From Branchiostoma floridae (taxonomy: Eukaryota > Chordata > Leptocardii > Amphioxiformes > Branchiostomatidae): a stretch of 64,000 nucleotides of DNA. How positions within the stretch are numbered: the stretch's first letter is position 1; each line of letters opens with the position of its first letter. The translations under genes were made by a program, and so were the position numbers. A model generated the notes under the pieces. It was not told where the DNA came from, did no database searches, and was given only the letters and a program-made list of their open reading frames with translations. The DNA is taken from NCBI RefSeq assembly GCF_000003815.2, contig NC_049985.1, positions 24,967,076 through 25,031,075 on the forward strand. Direction: 5' to 3'. Of this stretch, positions 47,101 to 62,100 are shown piece by piece.

Positions 47101-50100
47101 ATCACAACGGCGACTACACTGGCCAGAAGGCATTTTGCGACTGCAAGTCGCAAAATGCAAAAATGAACGTTTCATAATTGGAGTTTGAAAATATATAGCA
47201 GCAAAGGTCGGGTTAATCATGTTATCAATTTAGGGCAATGGAGCAGTCAATGGTTACTTAACTTTTTCAGATTAATTATGACAAGTACAGTACATTGTGG
47301 ACACTTAAGGGTCTTAAGGCAGCAGGGTGGTATCGTGACCACAAACAGCTAGATACATATACAATACAAACATAACTACATATAGCACATATACAGTCAG
47401 TGGTTGCCTACGTACCTGGTAGACAGATGCCGTTCACTACAACATTACCCTCTTTGCATTCACAGTCGAAAGAACCGGGTTCGTTGACACATTGCTCGTG
47501 CTCTGTACAGTCGTCGTAACCCTCTGTACACTCGTCGATTTCTTTTGAAGAAGACGAAGAAGAGAAAATGAAACAGCAATTTATCTATTAATCTATGACA
47601 CAATCAAACAATAACACAATCTACATGTTCTAGATACTATGAATGAGCACCAGATACTATGTTACATTATGGATTTGCTAGGAGCACGTAAAGAATGTCT
47701 GGTTCCATCTAACTTATCTAACTATGCCAGAAATGAGTAAGATGCCGGTGGTAAAATTATTTCCAGGGATGAACATTTCAGCCCTCAATTTCCAATAATG
47801 TAGTTGTCAGTTGAGGCTGGATGCAGTTAAGTCGAAACAACCTCACGCTTTCGTCAACAGTGGCCTAACCCATACCCTAACTGTAAACAACATACTGAAT
47901 AGAAATCATACTTAGAAACCAAGCAAGATAAAATTTCACGGTAAAGTAAAGATGCCTACCCAGGCATGTCACGACATAGTCCTCCACTGTGTAGTACCCG
48001 CCCCTGCAGTAACAGGTGTAACCGCCTGCGGTGTTGTTGCACAGCTGCTCACAATTGTGTTGCCCACTCAAACACTCGTCTTCGTCTATCGCGAGACAAT
48101 GAATACTTATTGATGCCATGACTTCCAATAAGAACGTAAAATGTACTTAATTCATTATATTGTAAATGGTCGTAGTCACTGAACTCAATTAGTAATTCCA
48201 AACCATTATATTTATACTCTATGTATTGCATTATACTACATGTATGGTATTATGTATTGCAGACCGTCTAAATGATAAGATTTGTTAGATCATTGACTAT
48301 ATGGACAGACGAAAGTCACTATTTTGGTCTGTCATCCAGGTTATCTATGACATATGAAATGTAAACATTGTTTGTAGTAGGTTGCGGAAACTACTAGTTT
48401 ATCACCCTATTGTAGGAAGTTACTTGAGTTAGTGGCATGTACCTTCACACGTGACGCCGTCAGTACCCAGCTTGTAGCCCTTCCTGCAGGAACACACCGC
48501 GGTCCCGGTACCGTTCAGCAGGCACCAGCCGAGCTCTGGGTCACACCCCGGGTTGTCAGCGCCGCTGCAGGGGCTGGTAGCTGTTGGTGAAACATGTTAA
48601 CTGTACGATGCCATGCATTCTCTCTTCATGAAATCACGTAGCAAATTCAAAAACATTTTGGCTATGTGTGAACGTTGAAACTTTCAACAGCAATACAAGA
48701 TTTGCTTTGAGCGTAGCGTTGTAATATTGCTTTAGACTTCTATAATTTCTTTTTACGCAAAAGAGTTTTGAGGCTTTTTTAAAAGAATATCTACAACATT
48801 CTCATTCCGAATGACCCCACGCTAAAGTATTATTTTAATGTTCAGGTATGATAATTCTAATGCTATCATTGTTACGACTAGAACGTGTAAAATAGTGTTG
48901 AGTTGTGTAATACTTCAGTAGCTAATGGAAACGTATTAATTTGTGCCCAGTTCGAACGCATCACCTACCTTCGTCATACTTTACTCCAGGGGATTCAATT
49001 TTTTAGAGGAACTTTTGCGCAAAAATGATGCTGAAAGCCTATTTGAGAATGAATACAAATGTACCTCATAACTACGTTCAAAACAAATCTCATTTTGGCT
49101 TAAAACTTGACTGTTAAGATGTCAGGTACATAATTGTCTTTACATTCATCTGACAAAATGTCTGAGTCATGATAGAGTTACGGAGCGGTCACAAAGGTCG
49201 TGCGATCGTCGTGCGATCGCTAACTTCAGACATTTTGGAGGACAAATGTGTACGTGTCTTGCAAAGTTCAACTATCTTTGTACCTACTCAAAATGCTATT
49301 TTGGATCCTTCATGGTGGCTGGCTCTGTCTCAGCCTTCTGAAAATCCTATGGCATCACAATCGTACGACGATCGCGCGACCTATATGACCGCGTGATNNN
49401 NNNNNNNNNNNNNNNNNNNNNNNNNNNNNNNNNNNNNNNNNNNNNNNNNNNNNNNNNNNNNNNNNNNNNNNNNNNNNNNNNNNNNNNNNNNNNNNNNCCG
49501 TCCGTGTTCTCACACAGCTGACTGCAGTTGTTCAAATTGCCCATACATTCATCCACGTCTAAAATGGCAAACCAGGGAGATAAACACAAATTAAAGTGAT
49601 GCTACTCCTTTTTACAAGCTTTAGCTCTGTGTAAATGAACTATATGACAGCATTGTGTATTCTCTCTAAAGTAGGGAATGCCTTTACATAACCAACACCA
49701 AGATTGATTGGGACTTACCCCAAATTTTCAGCCGACTCCGTCAGCCTTGTTCACGGAATGGACCCGTCTGCTGTAGCTTCCGGACGTGACGTCAGGGACA
49801 CACGACTGCAGCAGAGGGTCGTAAATGCCAGATAACCTGTGTCGCCCCGCGTCTCTGTTCATGCCCGTACCCAGGAGGGGTTCGGAGGGTTCGGAAGAAC
49901 CCCCCTCCCCCCCCCCCCCCACATGCTCAAACGGTCCACTTGTTCACGCTCAAAGGTCCACTTTTTCATGCTCAAAGGTCCCCTTTTTGTCCAAGATTTT
50001 TTTCAAAGGCATGACTGATATGCATTATTCACTGATAGACATTTCATTCAATCCTAGTGAGTCTATCAGCAAAATTTGCCCCAGAAAGTGCAGGAAATGG

Positions 50101-53100
50101 CTTTTCAGAGGGACCAGATGTCAAAATTTCCCTGGACCACCATTGCAACGCCTTCCGCCTTTGGTATCGGACATGGTGAAATATGTTGGGGGAGTCAGCC
50201 TCAAAGACTTATGCCCAAAACCTTGTGTATTTTAAGAGAAATTCCATTAAACTTAGCCAGCGAATTTTGCCCGTCAAAATGCAGGAAATGGCGTTTCAGA
50301 GGGTTAAGATTTCAATTTTTCCCGGGGGAGCTGGGTACGCGAACACCGGCNNNNNNNNNNNNNNNNNNNNNNNNNNNNNNNNNNNNNNNNNNNNNNNNNN
50401 NNNNNNNNNNNNNNNNNNNNNNNNNNNNNNNNNNNNNNNNNNNNNNNNNNGCGAGTGTATTTTTTCGACTACTACTATATCTGCGCGATTCGACCTCTGC
50501 TTGGAGAGTAAGTCTCGCGCCTGTGGCGCTCGATGGTCCCACGGGTACTAAAAAGAACCCCCCCCCCCAACCAAAATCCTGGCTACGGGCATGCTGTTCA
50601 GTGATGGACGGTGGGCGCGAATGTACACAGCCACAGGTTATCTGGCATTTACGACCCTTTGCTGCAGTCGTGTGTCCCTGACGCCACGTCCGGAAGCTAC
50701 AGCAGACGGGTCCATTCCGTGAACTATTTAACCTGATTAGTCATTGGTCCCCGAAGGTTGACCCTTGACCCCACAGTACCAAGAGATGCCAATCTGTCAG
50801 TCCAACTGTGGCCCTCGTCTCCGACGGACCTTCCACTCTCTGCCTACCACCGCCAAAACAGAAATCTCGTCGCCGCTGAGGTCGAAGGGACGCCGAAGGG
50901 ACCTCGAGGGTTTAGCGGTATCGCCGGGTCGGCGTACGGGGGACGTTGGTCCCCCGGAAGGTTTGACGAGATATTCTGTGTTTTCTCGTGTATTCAATTA
51001 CCGTGTGTGTTTTCAGGAGTACTAGTGCAGAGCTACATGTACCGTCCTTGTTCTTGCTGTGCTGGATGCCGTCTAGCGCACCTGGATTTCCGAGGGCCGG
51101 CTGTATTGTTTTAACATTTGCATTTCTGTCGCTTATTCGTATGTATGAGCTTTTAGCGGCTCGGGGGAGGATGGCCGCCTTACACCATTTTTCGTTTTAC
51201 AGCTTAAATCCTTTTATCCTAGGCCGGGTCGAGTTTAGGACGCTTTTAGTTCACGCTGGCGTTCTGTTCTGCATGGAGCTGAGTGATTCTTGTGTGGTTT
51301 CGTGACTTTGTGTATGTTTTAGCAGCGTTCGACAGCCACATCCAAGCAGATAGTTGGTGCCCACATGGCAAGCCGGTGGTTCTCTGAAATTCCTTTGTCG
51401 CCATGTTTTTTTTCATCCTTTCTATCCTCTGCAAAGGAAACCTGTGGGTGTTGGCTTTTAATGCTGAGGTGTGGAGCAGAACGAGAGTTTCCAGATTTTT
51501 ATGTCATTTTCTGATTTTCGTGAATATTTTCAGGCAGGAACAGAGGAAGACGATGGCATGGTCCAGGAGGCTGTGTTGGGGTTTTCTGCTACCATTTGTT
51601 TTAGTTCGCATGTGTATGAGTGCGTACCTGTAAGGCGTGGTGACTGAGTTGTGGACACGCGTGGCCCAGTCCTTACCGCGTTCGCGGCACCCTAGACCGT
51701 TTGTGGGAGGGCTGGGCGGTGTGGAAGATGCGTAACTATGTTTTTAGACTTGTCTGTCTGGGACCGGACCTGTTGCCGGGCGCCCGTCCCTTCCCACTGT
51801 CTCATGGTTCACGTGTTGTTCATACAGGTCTGACGCTCTCCCCCTCCAACAACAGGGATGCGCGGGACACACCACCACCCAGAGCCGGCACAAGCCACCA
51901 TCAACCTCGCCAGATGTGCGGCCCGATAGGACCCGTTGGTGGCCTGCACAAGCTTTAGCAGCAGAGAGGGCCAGGAAACCTGTTAGCCGAACAGTTAGGC
52001 TGTGATGTTTTATGTTGTGAACCATGTTCTTTGTGCTGAATATAGTGCTACAAGGGACAGCGGTCAGAGGATCAGGGTCGACTGGCGCTCCGGTCCCCGA
52101 CACCGTCCAGCCCCTGCCGGTCAGTTCAGCTAACCCCGCCGGCAACTCAAGGTCATTTCCCCCCTACTTTTCGTGAATAGATTTTGACATGTCGTTTTCC
52201 AGTGCGATGGGGTGCCGCGGGATGCTGGAGGGTTAGGAACTAATCGAGTAACCCTGTTTTGAGATTGGTCTGACCAAGAACGTCTTTGGTCTGACGCCTT
52301 TTTTATAGCACGGCAAGATATCATTCAGTGCCACGGGGTTCCGCAGTAAGCTGAATGACCCGAAAAGTGTGCAGTCTTTCTTCAGCATGTTGTGACGTTA
52401 TCCAGTGCGAAGGGTTTCCGCGGAAGGCTGGACGATCCGAGAAATTGTGCTCATTTAATCCTTTTCGTGATTTGTTGTGATATCATCCAGTGCGGAGGGG
52501 TTCCGCGGAAAGCTGGATCCTTGGAAGACCCTAGAAGTTGTGTACGCTCTCGTTGGACATTTGGTGATTTTATCCAGCGCGACGGGGTTCCTCGGAAGGC
52601 TGGATAACATGCTATGCGGGAGTGTGTAAGGACTTGGTCCGGACTGAGGCTTGGTTAAAGTGTATGTGGGACACGGGCATTAGGAATGGAGTGAGCAATA
52701 TGTTTTGCGTTTTTGAAACTGTGTGCATAGGATATTGTTGTCTTTCGGAACATTGCGGATTTTGCCAGATGCACTAGAGAGCTCTCTTTATGGGACATCA
52801 GAAGGGCGTGGTTCCCAAAGTCGCCGAGAAGATATGATAGCGTTCGAAGAATTTTCATTCCTTCCTGTTTTCGCTCAGCTTCTGTAACGTGGAGAAATTT
52901 AGATCGGTATTCTTGGCGTTGATTTTCTCTCAGTTTTCGAAGCGCGCGCTGCGGCCGATTAGAGTGGGTAAACGTTGTTTTGGCGAAGTTCAGAGAAGAA
53001 CATGATGAAGTGTGGGGGACAAGTCGAGAGAAATATGAAAGGGATTAGATGTGTAAGGGGAGAGGAAAGGTGAGAGAGTGATGATAAGGATGGGAAGACG

Positions 53101-56100
53101 GGAAAGGGATGAAGATAGGGAGTGATTTATAACAGTATTCAGGAAGAGGAAAGGAGCGACAAGATACCTTTGGAAAGTATCATAGTAGGGAGGCACTAGG
53201 GGACAGGAAAGGAAAGGCTCAAGAAGCCAGAGAGGACAAAGGCGGAAGACGATTTCCGCATCACTTCATAACGGAGGGGCCAAGGACTAATTCAGGACAA
53301 ATAGGATACCATTTAACCTGATTAGTCATTGGTCCCCGATGGTTGACCCTTGACCCCACAGTACCAAGAGATGCCAAACTGTCAGTCCAACTGTGGCCCT
53401 CCGGCTACGTCTGGAGCCTGAAACGACCCACCCGCCCAGCCCTCGACAAGATTTCTGTTTTGCGCGGATGGTGACGCCCGCATAAGGGCGGTCGTCTCAG
53501 CGCTTAGGTGACTTTAGGCTCCAGACGATTTCCGCATCACTTCATAACGGAGGGGCCGAGGACTAATTCAGGACAAATAGGATACAAGGCTGACGGAGTC
53601 GGCTGAAAATTTGGGGTAAGTCCCAATCAATCTTGGTGTTGGTTATGTAAAGTTTAGTTTTTGCACAATGTCATTTACCAACACTGATGAACTTTCATGC
53701 TAAAAGTAGGGAATGCCGTCCTCACATTAACAATTCTGATTCATGGAACATGGCATCAAACGCGCATTTATTTGTATCGCCAGTATAACTGCCCTTCGGC
53801 GTAAAATGACATCTTTACTGGCACGTGGCACAACAACAAATGTACAGCAAAGCTAAATCTTTACAAATTTTACATTTTGTTGCTGTGTAAGGCCATGTTG
53901 ATTTAATTGATTGTATGAATGACTTTGTCTATGAAACCCAGAACTGATTTACCTGCGAACAAACAAAAGTACTAGTTTAGCAAACATTATGAAATCTAAG
54001 TGGACTGCAAGGTTGAACAATGACTAAGAATAAATATGTTATACAAGCAATAGAAACTTCATTTCTTTTATAATATCAAGTTTATTGCAAATTCTTGCCC
54101 GTGGGCTAATTGCAGTTAACATAGAAAAGATTCAAACAATGTAAGATACAAAATCACAAGTGTCTACTCTAATCTAAATCTAGTAAAAGCTAACTCTAGA
54201 TCCTGGGTTATTGGGTTCGACTCCTTTTTCGAAGACAGTGGAAGACGAAAGATCCCACCTTTTTTATTATGTGTGGGTTTTGTCATGTTAGAAGGAGAAC
54301 TGATTTCTTTTTGTCAGTGAACGTGAGGAAGTTTGGGTGGAATTTGATGGTCTCTTCGAACAGCTCTTTTCTTTCTTGATTATAGAGAGAGCAGTTTGAC
54401 ATATTTTCATCTTAGACTTTCAAATAGACTTTGGCATCTTCAAACATTAGTATCTTTTTTAGGATATTCTTTTTTTCTAATTTTCGGGACAAATTTATTA
54501 GTTTTATTTGTACGACTTACAGTATGGTCGAAAGGTTTTTACAAACAAAAATTAATACTAATTAAATCAACATGGCCTAAGATTAAATCAAAAATCCGCT
54601 GGCGCTGCTACTATATAATCCTTCTTTTAAGCGAGAAAATAATCTTGGCTTAAAACGACCAACTCATCAATCGACTGCCTGTTACTACAACGAATGTTAC
54701 CTACCATTGCAAGATACTCTGTCGTCAGCCAGACTGTACCCGTCGTTACAGACGCAGTCAAACCCGCCCAGGAAGTTCCTACATTCATGCTGACAGACGT
54801 CACCCTCCGCGCCTGCGCACTCATCACGGTCTGAGCAAGAAGAATTTTGCGTACTGAATATACTTTTCTAGTAAGATTATGAAATCTCTTTCAGATCTAG
54901 AGTATGAAATGGATTGGTTTGGTTTGATACAGATCTCCATTGGTGACTGATATGTCCCTATTCTTCCTGGAGTCCGGGTGATTTGTAGAGAATCACCAAC
55001 TCTAGACGGAAGGATTTGCACCATCGCACACCGCACCCTCGCACGTGTGGAAGGTTCTTTAACGTGCGTAGGATGTGGCTGTCCCCAAACACGGGACCTC
55101 CATTTAACGTCCTATCCGGGGGACCTAGGTACTCATTTTCACCTGAGTAAAGTGAGGAAAGCCGAGTTACGTTATGTGCTAATGATGATACAAGGAATGG
55201 CATGATTGTTGCGCATATCTTACCTTGGCAGTTATAACCGTCTCCAGTGTAGCCGTCCGGACAGGGTCCGCAGATGTATCCATCCGCGCCGTGCCCTGCC
55301 GGCGGAGGGAGATCTGTGCAATTTGACCCAGGGAAACACGGGTGAAGGTTCACCAAGCATGCGTCTACCTGCATTTCACAGCGCTCTCCATGGTACCCTG
55401 TTGCACAGGAGCAAGTCCGCCTGTAAAATCTGTAAACAATATAATAGATTGATGAGTCAGCTGATGATTCCAAATGTTGACCCCGTGTCGTTAATAGTCA
55501 ACATTGTGGCGTCAATTAACCCACGGTAGAACAACATAGGTTTTTGCTATTAACGCAAAAGGTGTAAATATATCTTGATACACATCAACGGAATGTGGCT
55601 AAAACTGCACTGCTTTGTACGAGTAAAGTGTAAAGAAATAAAGAAATATTATGATCATTAGTTTGACACGTAACTACATTATCACTAAGCTTGAAACGTA
55701 CATATTAATTTAATTTGAAAGATTTGAAAGGAGTATGTCATTAAGCCGAAAGCCAGACGAATGCCTTTACCTCCACAATAAACCAAATTAATTTCACGAT
55801 ATCAATATTTGGAGAAAACTTACTTATTCTCACCACCAGCAACGGAAGGATCCGGATCCACACTTGCGTCACAGTTGCCGCCATTTTGACAGGAGCACAT
55901 AAAGACAACGGGCCAGTATTGGGCTGACGAGTTCTGCGCGTTGTACACATCAAGTTGGAACTTAAATGGCGAGTCAGAAGTTACCTGGGATCAACAAAAT
56001 TGAGATAGAGGTGACATCGTGTTAACAACTGTATTGGATATCAAATTTGGAAGTAAGAGTCTTGTGTACCTAGTGATACATTCGAGTAGGACAAGTTTCC

Positions 56101-59100: not shown

Positions 59101-62100
59101 GGTTATGTTACTCACTAAGAACGTCCTGGTTATTGTCAAATTCCTCTTCATCCATCACCAGTTCTTTGCCAAGGTCGAGGTCTCCTGTCTGGCTGACATC
59201 AAACAAACAGTCGGTGTTGTTTCCACAGGTGGCGCGGGCCTGAGCCTCCAGGTCCGGGTCACTGAACGTGATCTCATCGGTAAAATGGGGGTAGAAGGAA
59301 GACCGTGTTTTGAAGGAGTCTGGAGTATGGCTAGGAAACAATGAATGTCTTGGTCCGTCTTCGCTGGTGAGCTGCCCTGAAGGAAGAAGCAAAACAGATT
59401 GTCACTGATGCTTAAAATGGTATTTGCTCTACTTACCTTACCCGGAAAGATGCTTTACGAACGAAGTTGATATCATCATATATATAGCCAGATGACATTG
59501 ACCAATAAGAAAGCTTAATTTTCGTATAAATCAGCGACTAAGAATTTTCACAACTTGCCATGGGCATAATACAGTAATTTAAAAGTTTGATAGTATTGCA
59601 AATACTTGTTAATGCTAGTAACCATGTGTGTCATGATTAAAAATATTTAGACTTACAAGTAAGGCCGAAGTCCTCGTAGAGTTCCCTCTCCGTTGCGTTA
59701 ACAGACACCATGGTTCCATTTGAAGTCTCAAAATCGTTGGATTGGTCGCCATCAAACTTCCCCAGAAGCCCCCGTATCTTGCCTTTGAACTCTGACGGGG
59801 ACGTAAACTCTACGGCAAGCATTCCCTGATGGTGGACAAATATGGGGGAAAGACAAAGGAATATTTCATGATGGACAAGCCAGGAGCGCTTATAGCTCAG
59901 TCGGCTCCTTTATTCATAGAGACCATGTAAAGCATCACATGTACACATCACATCGCCAGTAGAAGCTAGTCTCTACCAGACTCAGGGTCGCTTGAAAACC
60001 GCAGAAATGGAACAAATAGAGGAGTAAGTCGGCCAAAGGAGTGTAGCCGGCCGCTAGGGAACAGCGCGCGACCTACGGAATCTGTTGAATGTCGCTTCGA
60101 TGAAAAACAATAATACTAATGGTTTTCCAGCGACCCATAGTCTGGTAGAGACTAAGTAGAAAAGCAGCCAGGCGCGCGGCGCCGTGTCGGTTCCATCACC
60201 GAGTCGATTTCGGCACTTCACCGAGGCTGTACGGGGATCATGCATTGATAAATCGCTTAAAATCGGCCGACATGTCCTCCTAGAGGCGCCCGAAACGGCC
60301 TCGGTGACAGGCCCGATCCTGCGGGCAACGATTTCGGTGATGATCCCCTCGCTGCACCGCGCCTGGCTGCGCCTGACGGCGATTTTGAGACGGGCGTCGT
60401 ACACGAAACGTCTCAATGAAGATACAGTTACGCTATCAACGAAGAAAAACTTCGTAGGGCAACATAAAAGAAAAAAAAGATCATTAATCAAGTGAAGAAA
60501 ATCCACAGACCTTCTTGGCTGTTGCCTTGACAGTGATGCCGCTGAAGAAGACGACCAGGAGAGAGTTGTTGGCCGGATGAGTGACTAGGGCGTTGTCTCC
60601 CACCTCCAGCTCGTACTCCTCCTCATCAATCTCCTCCTCACCAACCTCCTCACCTGCCTCCTCACCAAACACAGACAGGTCCGTCAGGCTGCCGTTCACG
60701 TACAGCTCCAGGCTGGAGTTTCCCACCACCTGGATCTGTACAGGCTGTTTGTCTCGCTGGTACGCGATGATGGCGGTGATCATGGTGGCGTGGTCCGTTC
60801 CTGATATTTCAATTCAATTTTTATTGAGAATCAAATAGCCGTGCACAATGTCTAGAACATGTCGAACTGTGTCGAATTTACACAGACTACTACAGTGCAT
60901 ATCAAAATCAAACAGTAATAACTACATTCAAAGGTACATAGACATGCCAATCAAGATAATATGGCCTTTCCCCTGCTCCATTTTTTTTCAATGGCCCTTC
61001 CCTCCTGTGCACCAGCCCTCCCCTAATAAATAGTCCCTAAACTCCCATTTACCTGGAGCAAGTGACATCCTACATTGCAGTTGGTACTCTCCGTTGTCAA
61101 CATCTGCGAGCATGAAGTCGCCCAGCCCGTTAAAGGAGTATTTGTTTCCGTCCATCGTTGTCAGGTGGGGATCGTATCTAACCCATGGGATGCTGATTCT
61201 GTATGAACGGCACCAACGTGATGGGGACGACAGAGGGCGATGCCGCTGAAATCTGTTACAGTACCAGCCACCCCGGATTGTCGCTGCGTCTCTGCAACAG
61301 CTCTGGAAGGCGTTCTCGTCCATCGAACGACTGTTCTGCAAATAAAGGTCAAGATCCTTCACGTCATACAGAATAATAAGCTTTCAATGCCAATATGTTA
61401 AGACGATTTGAGATATATATTGGAACGTAACTTCTAGTTTTGATTTAATTCATCATTATTGTGTTATCTTCAAGTTTGTTCTGCTAGCTCATTCATTTCA
61501 TCCGTTAGTGTCAACAAGAGAGGGGGGGATCCCGAGCGTTATTGACACAGAAAGTAAAGGCATAGATCCTCCAAAGCTGTAGTTACAACGACCTTTACAT
61601 AGTAATAGCATGGTATAATGCGTATATCAATATACAGGGTGTTTACACTTCAGTTTAACTGTTTGTAACATCAACCTTGTATGTGTGATGCCTATTTCCA
61701 TACAGTAAGGATTGTCTACCAGTAAACGATAATTGAATCCGTCTATAACCCATTCTTTTGAGCACCTGTCACTTTGACCAATAAATGATGAGCTGGCAAT
61801 ACTTTTCTGTGATGTTTGGACAGAATAAACTTACTATTATGAGATGTCCACCTAATAAGCCAGTCCGGCGAGCTCCTCCGCCAAGCCTATTTCTTCTACA
61901 TCTTAACCCGCTACCCGACACGTGCCAGCATGCAGATAACCCTGATGTCTGCTCATACCAATGCCCCATTTCGTAGCAGCACATTCTGCTCATTGTAAAT
62001 CTGTCCGAATCGACGTAAGAATGCACTCGGCGTCGGCTTACAACACACGTGGCCCTTTGTGTAATTGCATATGGGCGTCCATAGCTGTATTGTACAAATA

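Follow-up and report, generated by a model that had tools for sequence, protein, structure and literature searches.

The 64,000-nucleotide stretch of the amphioxus Branchiostoma floridae analysed here (contig NC_049985.1, positions 24,967,076 to 25,031,075; hereafter the window) carries a 2,861-bp insert (50725-53585) that we identify, with a probability of about 0.9, as one copy of a non-autonomous Ngaro-like tyrosine-recombinase (YR) retrotransposon. The insert is a single non-coding element with split direct repeats, its parts running in the order A1-internal-B1-A2-m-B2, rather than two joined elements. A sequence-only reading of this DNA had described a long and a short unit with a shared start and a shared end, joined head to tail. 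The shared segments are present: in comparisons against the whole window, the A repeats (50726-50816 and 53311-53401) aligned over 91 bp at 97.8% identity (E 1e-39) and the B repeats (53247-53309 and 53523-53585) over 63 bp at 98.4% (E 2e-25). The joined pair is not, since the composite recurs as a single unit in 15 of 20 further loci. The spacer m is strongly folded (z -4.28 for 53402-53530; 0/200 shuffles as good), and no inverted repeats were found in or around the insert besides a hairpin in m and the arms of a host repeat. Three window frames had no Pfam match at E 0.01, and no Rfam match reached the gathering score anywhere in the window.

Copies with the same ends are present elsewhere in the genome (513 Mb, 431 contigs searched). 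With a 176-bp A1 query, the best 40 of 45 candidates were scored and lay at 24 or more loci, while the last 25 bases of B, with as many as 3 mismatches allowed, matched 43 times at 25 loci and not at all in the reversed control. With a 601-bp query from the body, 63 matches were obtained; the best 40 of 64 candidates were scored, their 40 main rows corresponding to 40 loci. When all element parts were clustered, at least 48 loci were obtained. Among the 20 further loci that were read, the 15 with the full order A1-internal-B1-A2-m-B2 include L019, with a shortened m, and L026, with a lengthened one. Of the other five, L009 lacks B1-A2, no B2 was found in L010, L015 is interrupted by N, L017 is a short unit alone, and L028 bears an insertion resembling a long interspersed nuclear element (LINE), its right end lying in L034. 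Short units alone were found at L033 (the same locus as L017), L032, and L039, and L029 is a short unit interrupted by 1.4 kb. The 7-kb extra sequence of L028 was considered as an autonomous partner and rejected as a nested insertion, its frames looking LINE-like by eye (CCHC, endonuclease, reverse transcriptase [RT]); nothing YR-like was seen by eye in the additional 1.3 to 1.4 kb that the L029 and L030 short units contain. All 16 full copies are non-coding, with gag, RT/RNase H, and YR absent and a longest stop-to-stop frame of 217 amino acids (L012 only), which makes the element a non-autonomous relative rather than an autonomous member of the Ngaro-like class.

Two subfamilies, g1 (six copies including that of the window, 94-99% identical) and g2 (ten copies, 95-100%), are 82-84% identical to one another, and the composite is also seen once in each of two further subfamilies, of which one, g4, was read at its ends only. 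The internal junction reads GGATAC/TATTT(A/G)ACC in 14 of the 15 other full copies and GGATAC/TTTTAACC in L026; the window junction, GGATAC/CATTTAACC, differs by one base from its sister copies, having C where they have T after GGATAC. As the GGATAC junction recurs in all 15 of these copies, it is not the misassembly that the sequence-only reading had considered; the assembly gap (50351-50450, 100 N) lies outside the insert. B ends are similarly uniform, 43/43 finishing in GATAC and 42/43 in GGATAC. This uniformity accords better with a junction copied from a template than with spacers that excised circles bring along from the host.

No target duplication was present in 18 of 19 copies, and a single base was duplicated in L021. 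The left flank ended in C in 22 of 23 copies (L021 being the exception), and the right flank began with T in 21 of 22, the exception being the window copy. At the border, the right flank matched the element's own start, TATTTNNCC, at 4.23 of 7 positions (n = 22), relative to a mean of 1.92 and a maximum of 2.95 of 7 at 59 other offsets. Position 18 of the right flank was also skewed; the left flank gave no comparable signal past the C. Insertion probably takes place at C/T sites whose right-hand host sequence resembles the start of the element.

The internal B1/A2 junction may be a copy of a circle junction and, as such, a putative recombinase site. Its 12-bp arms around GGATAC match at 10 of 12 positions in the type shared by the window and g2 (read from L018) and at 11 of 12 in g1. 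The usual YR site, as given in the available part of PMC3212892, comprises inverted repeats of 11-13 bp with 6-8 bp between them. Across 11 junctions, including those of YR-bearing kin, the best arm match was 8 to 11 of 12, a value reached by 0-2% of shuffles. The arms also covaried. Of 17 junctions typed (without the short units L073, L074, L077, and L080), 11 were kept and six with other spacing (L054, L055, L057, L062, L068, and L069) were omitted; in the 11, arms agreed at 10.3 of 12 positions within junctions and 8.1 across them (0/20,000 permutations). Removal of near-duplicates left eight lineages, which share ancestry and are not independent trials, with values of 10.1 versus 7.7 (1/40,320 permutations). 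A1 and A2 differed at 0-2 positions within copies, fewer than between copies (permutation P 0.0074 in g1; 0/5,000 in g2), and homogenisation of B1 and B2 was detected in g1 (P 0.027). The window copy has 2 (A1/A2) and 1 (B1/B2) differences, and the other five g1 copies have 0 each.

A search with PF00589 returned 51 matches, and the DNA downstream was examined for 30 of these, in sets of 10 and 20. In the larger set, 11 loci carried one direct repeat each, 41-75 bp long; setting aside the doubtful L063, the copies in the remaining 10 lie 277-430 bp apart, two of these loci being cut by the end of the DNA read. In the first 10 loci, inverted repeats were seen at L043, L048, L049, and L050, and no sequence in common with the element was found at E 0.01. 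Another of these 10 YR loci, L044 (G000:C224:23600-27900), has a 95-bp direct repeat at 100% identity. Some 1.1 kb, containing short repeats, separates its copies, and longer tandem repeats follow.

The short unit of the window element is homologous to that of the YR-bearing locus L059. The two short units align over their full extent, and B of L059 matches the window B over 27 nucleotides (92.6%, E 1.8e-5, both copies). Matches to the ALOG domain (E 4.5e-19) and to Phage_integrase (E 1.2e-7) were obtained with frames at this locus. Immediately upstream of its YR frames lies an extended, degenerate tandem array (L071:20-4220; G000:C14:20631500-20639200). With the L059 short unit as query, the best 40 of 90 candidates included eight kin at 86-93% identity in which A matches once more, on the appropriate side, with spans of 6.1-7.7 kb (for example, C2:1881880-1888552). 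These eight kin are perhaps another, larger non-autonomous set. At L062, which has a YR and repeats, an open-ended frame of 527 amino acids upstream shows, by eye, RNase H-like and YxDD motifs; its one Pfam match is below the cut-off (E 0.011), and no solved structure resembled it.

From these arrangements we infer an RNA step, a circle, mobilisation in trans, and a helper. RNA would begin in A1 and be reverse transcribed by proteins supplied in trans, and the internal B1/A2 junction would be the copy used to rejoin both ends into a circle. The B/A junction of that circle would constitute the recombinase site, with its 12-bp inverted arms around GGATAC, and a tyrosine recombinase would exchange it with a host C/T site that, to its right, looks like the right arm of the element. 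Such an exchange would leave no target duplication, with host bases retained before TATTT at the left end and the element's GGATAC at the right end. The sequence-only reading had suggested rolling-circle, circular-intermediate, or recombination-mediated insertion. We retain the latter two because 18 of 19 copies lack a duplication, the YR-type arms covary, the target is arm-like, and a relative encodes a YR; nothing favouring rolling-circle insertion was found.

Several results weigh against this interpretation. Of the 11 junctions whose arms were compared with shuffles, five have their best arm match with a spacer of 6 bases, and six have it at 10. Inspection of the flanks preceded the choice of the TATTTNNCC motif, even though that motif is how the element itself begins; the window copy is itself a poor target fit, with A instead of T after the border; and a joined-flank search for the empty site of L026 found none, its right flank entering another repeat. 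In g2, homogenisation of B1 and B2 was not significant (P 0.10). L059 is the sole YR locus with a clearly homologous B, its YR is in two overlapping frames, and A1 was not found within the 7.7 kb examined there. No YR match from the genome's YR searches fell inside the eight L059 kin, and thus no intact helper with matching ends was identified. Evidence for RT in the kin consists of motifs recognised by eye.

The element belongs to the split-direct-repeat YR elements and is most likely Ngaro-like. Split direct repeats are common to PAT, Ngaro, and VIPER in the available parts of PMC4157794 and PMC6681497, and its kin might on this basis be PAT-like rather than Ngaro-like. We consider this unlikely: the 527-amino-acid frame of L062 (one frame of one partly read element) has no methyltransferase match, and the available text of PMC2632668 reports Ngaro-like elements from amphioxus, including a copy near VCBP2/5. 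A YR transposon moving as DNA only (Crypton-like, or like the bacterial Tn916), by excision of a circle and reinsertion without RNA, would likewise be expected to show identical borders and a YR-type site, and the copies encode no RT. However, Cryptons as described in the available part of PMC3212892 do not have split direct repeats. Excision should at times carry host-derived spacers, whereas the right end is GGATAC in 42 of 43 cases; the homogenisation of A1 and A2 asks for copying; and L062, kin with this arrangement, has RT-like motifs (by eye) upstream of its YR. Movement as DNA only is therefore very improbable. A pair of insertions, whether independent or in tandem, can hardly be credited, nor can a rolling circle of the Helitron type: the single locus looks head-to-tail, but the same composite and internal junction occur at 15 other loci with differing flanks, and the ends TATTT...GGATAC are unlike the TC...CTRR ends of Helitrons. 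An ordinary long terminal repeat element was rejected on the copy family and the borders.

The window copy of this Ngaro-like element is a mosaic, with the body of one subfamily and most of its ends from another. Relative to g3 (one copy, L082 and L072), identity is 94-96% in the body (element positions 164-2470) and 48-83% in the ends; relative to g2 (L018), it is 68-89% in the body and 86-98% in the ends. A1 and the tract from the late body through B1-A2-m-B2 are g2-like, and the body is g3-like except for positions 93-163, which fit neither (59% to g2, 64% to g3). In g4 (L084 and L085, the two ends of a single copy), the body is 83% identical and A and B are different, the A copies being 96% and the B copies 98.5% alike. 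Four terminal-module sets (g1 to g4) were found with related bodies, and the body-versus-end identities in g2, g3, and g4 suggest that the ends are swapped as whole sets. In a circle the tract concerned would be contiguous, whereas the integrated form would need two exchanges. Template switching during reverse transcription could be another source of the mosaic. We propose only tentatively, at somewhat less than even odds, that a non-coding YR-retrotransposon body persists by changing its ends, with the arms kept matched and insertion occurring via host sequence that mimics a half-site. If this is true, the body could switch helper recombinase by swapping terminal modules.

Like Ngaro elements, for which DIRS-53_XT (PMC9210276) and the Ngaros of Cafeteria (PMC8547959) are further examples, the window element has A1-internal-B1-A2-B2 split direct repeats and lacks a target duplication, and its kin read here carry a YR upstream of B1. 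Unlike Ngaro, it has no coding capacity and has a structured spacer m between A2 and B2; m is also found in YR-bearing kin of this genome. SIRE of Trypanosoma cruzi, described in the available part of PMC6681497 as a non-autonomous form of VIPER comprising the A2-B2 region and about 30 bp of its own, is paralleled by the short units alone (L033, L032, and L039), whereas the main form here still has the four repeats, A1 among them, together with a non-coding body of 2.4 kb. As here, DIRS1-like elements are proposed to form a circle that a YR integrates at a short stretch of identity, and they leave no duplication (PMC3266345, available part); in contrast, DIRS1 has inverted terminal repeats and internal complementary regions in place of split direct repeats, and these are absent from the window element. 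Inverted repeats do stand at four YR loci of this genome (L043, L048, L049, and L050). Cryptons share the YR-type site; the available portion of PMC3212892 gives them no long direct repeats, in contrast to those of 92 and 63 bp here. In the accessible parts of the literature on non-autonomous Ngaro or split-repeat elements, with Repbase outside the search, SIRE was the sole parallel found. As far as the literature surveyed goes, circle formation and insertion by split-direct-repeat YR retrotransposons are still a model. Natural evidence for this model comes from a non-coding family whose copies are many and nearly identical, in the form of covarying recombinase-site arms, a half-site-like target, homogenised repeats, and block exchange of ends. 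Being short and non-coding, the element could also serve as the substrate in an assay of mobilisation.

The 160-bp inverted repeat around the insert, with its continuous left arm and its right arm split in two, was found as the sequence-only reading had described it, as was AC at each host junction. This repeat is unrelated to the element, older, and common, and its intact arm gives the empty site. With the arm as query, the best 40 of 489 candidates were 96-100% identical, and 38 of these 40 (that of the window included) covered at least 159 of the 160 bases. Six opposite-strand pairs among the best 40 span 1.1-3.3 kb, three of them about 1.1 kb; the window pair without the insert measures 1,110 bp, including the 100-N gap, whose real size may differ. 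Immediately left of the host inverted repeat, TAAAGTAGGGAATGCC occurs at 49667-49682, and it recurs with an extra A at 53701-53717, about 50 bp right of that repeat, perhaps as part of a longer duplication.

Coordinates of the element and of the interrupted host repeat in the window
Feature	Position	Strand	Remarks
Left arm of host repeat, intact	49682..49841	+	complement gives empty site GTGAAC/AAGG
Right arm of host repeat, section before insertion	50632..50724	-	93 nt, 98% complementary
A1, left terminal repeat, 92 bp	50725..50816	+	direct repeat of 53310-53401; 5' end TATTTAACC
Internal region, non-coding	50817..53246	+	94-96% identity to subfamily g3, element positions 164-2470
Five imperfect 45-nt hairpin-like repeats, in internal region	52185..52605	+	
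B1, internal copy of right terminal repeat, 63 bp	53247..53309	+	3' end GGATAC
B1/A2 junction: 12-bp arm, 6-bp spacer GGATAC, 12-bp arm	53292..53321	+	
A2, internal copy of left terminal repeat	53310..53401	+	repeat match to A1
m, spacer separating A2 from B2	53402..53522	+	hairpin-forming with first few bases of B2
B2, right terminal repeat	53523..53585	+	3' end GGATAC
Right arm of host repeat, section after insertion	53586..53652	-	match 53584-53652, 69 nt, 100%

The five 45-nt repeats of the internal region are spaced 77-126 bp apart and are kept in g1, g2, and g3. A C-G to T-A pair change was seen among the units, only some of which outfold shuffles. Beyond the insert, the minus-strand frames 54961-55497 and 60991-61383, with no Pfam match at E 0.01, resemble by eye EGF- and VWD-type extracellular exons, and the element may thus sit inside the intron of a gene.

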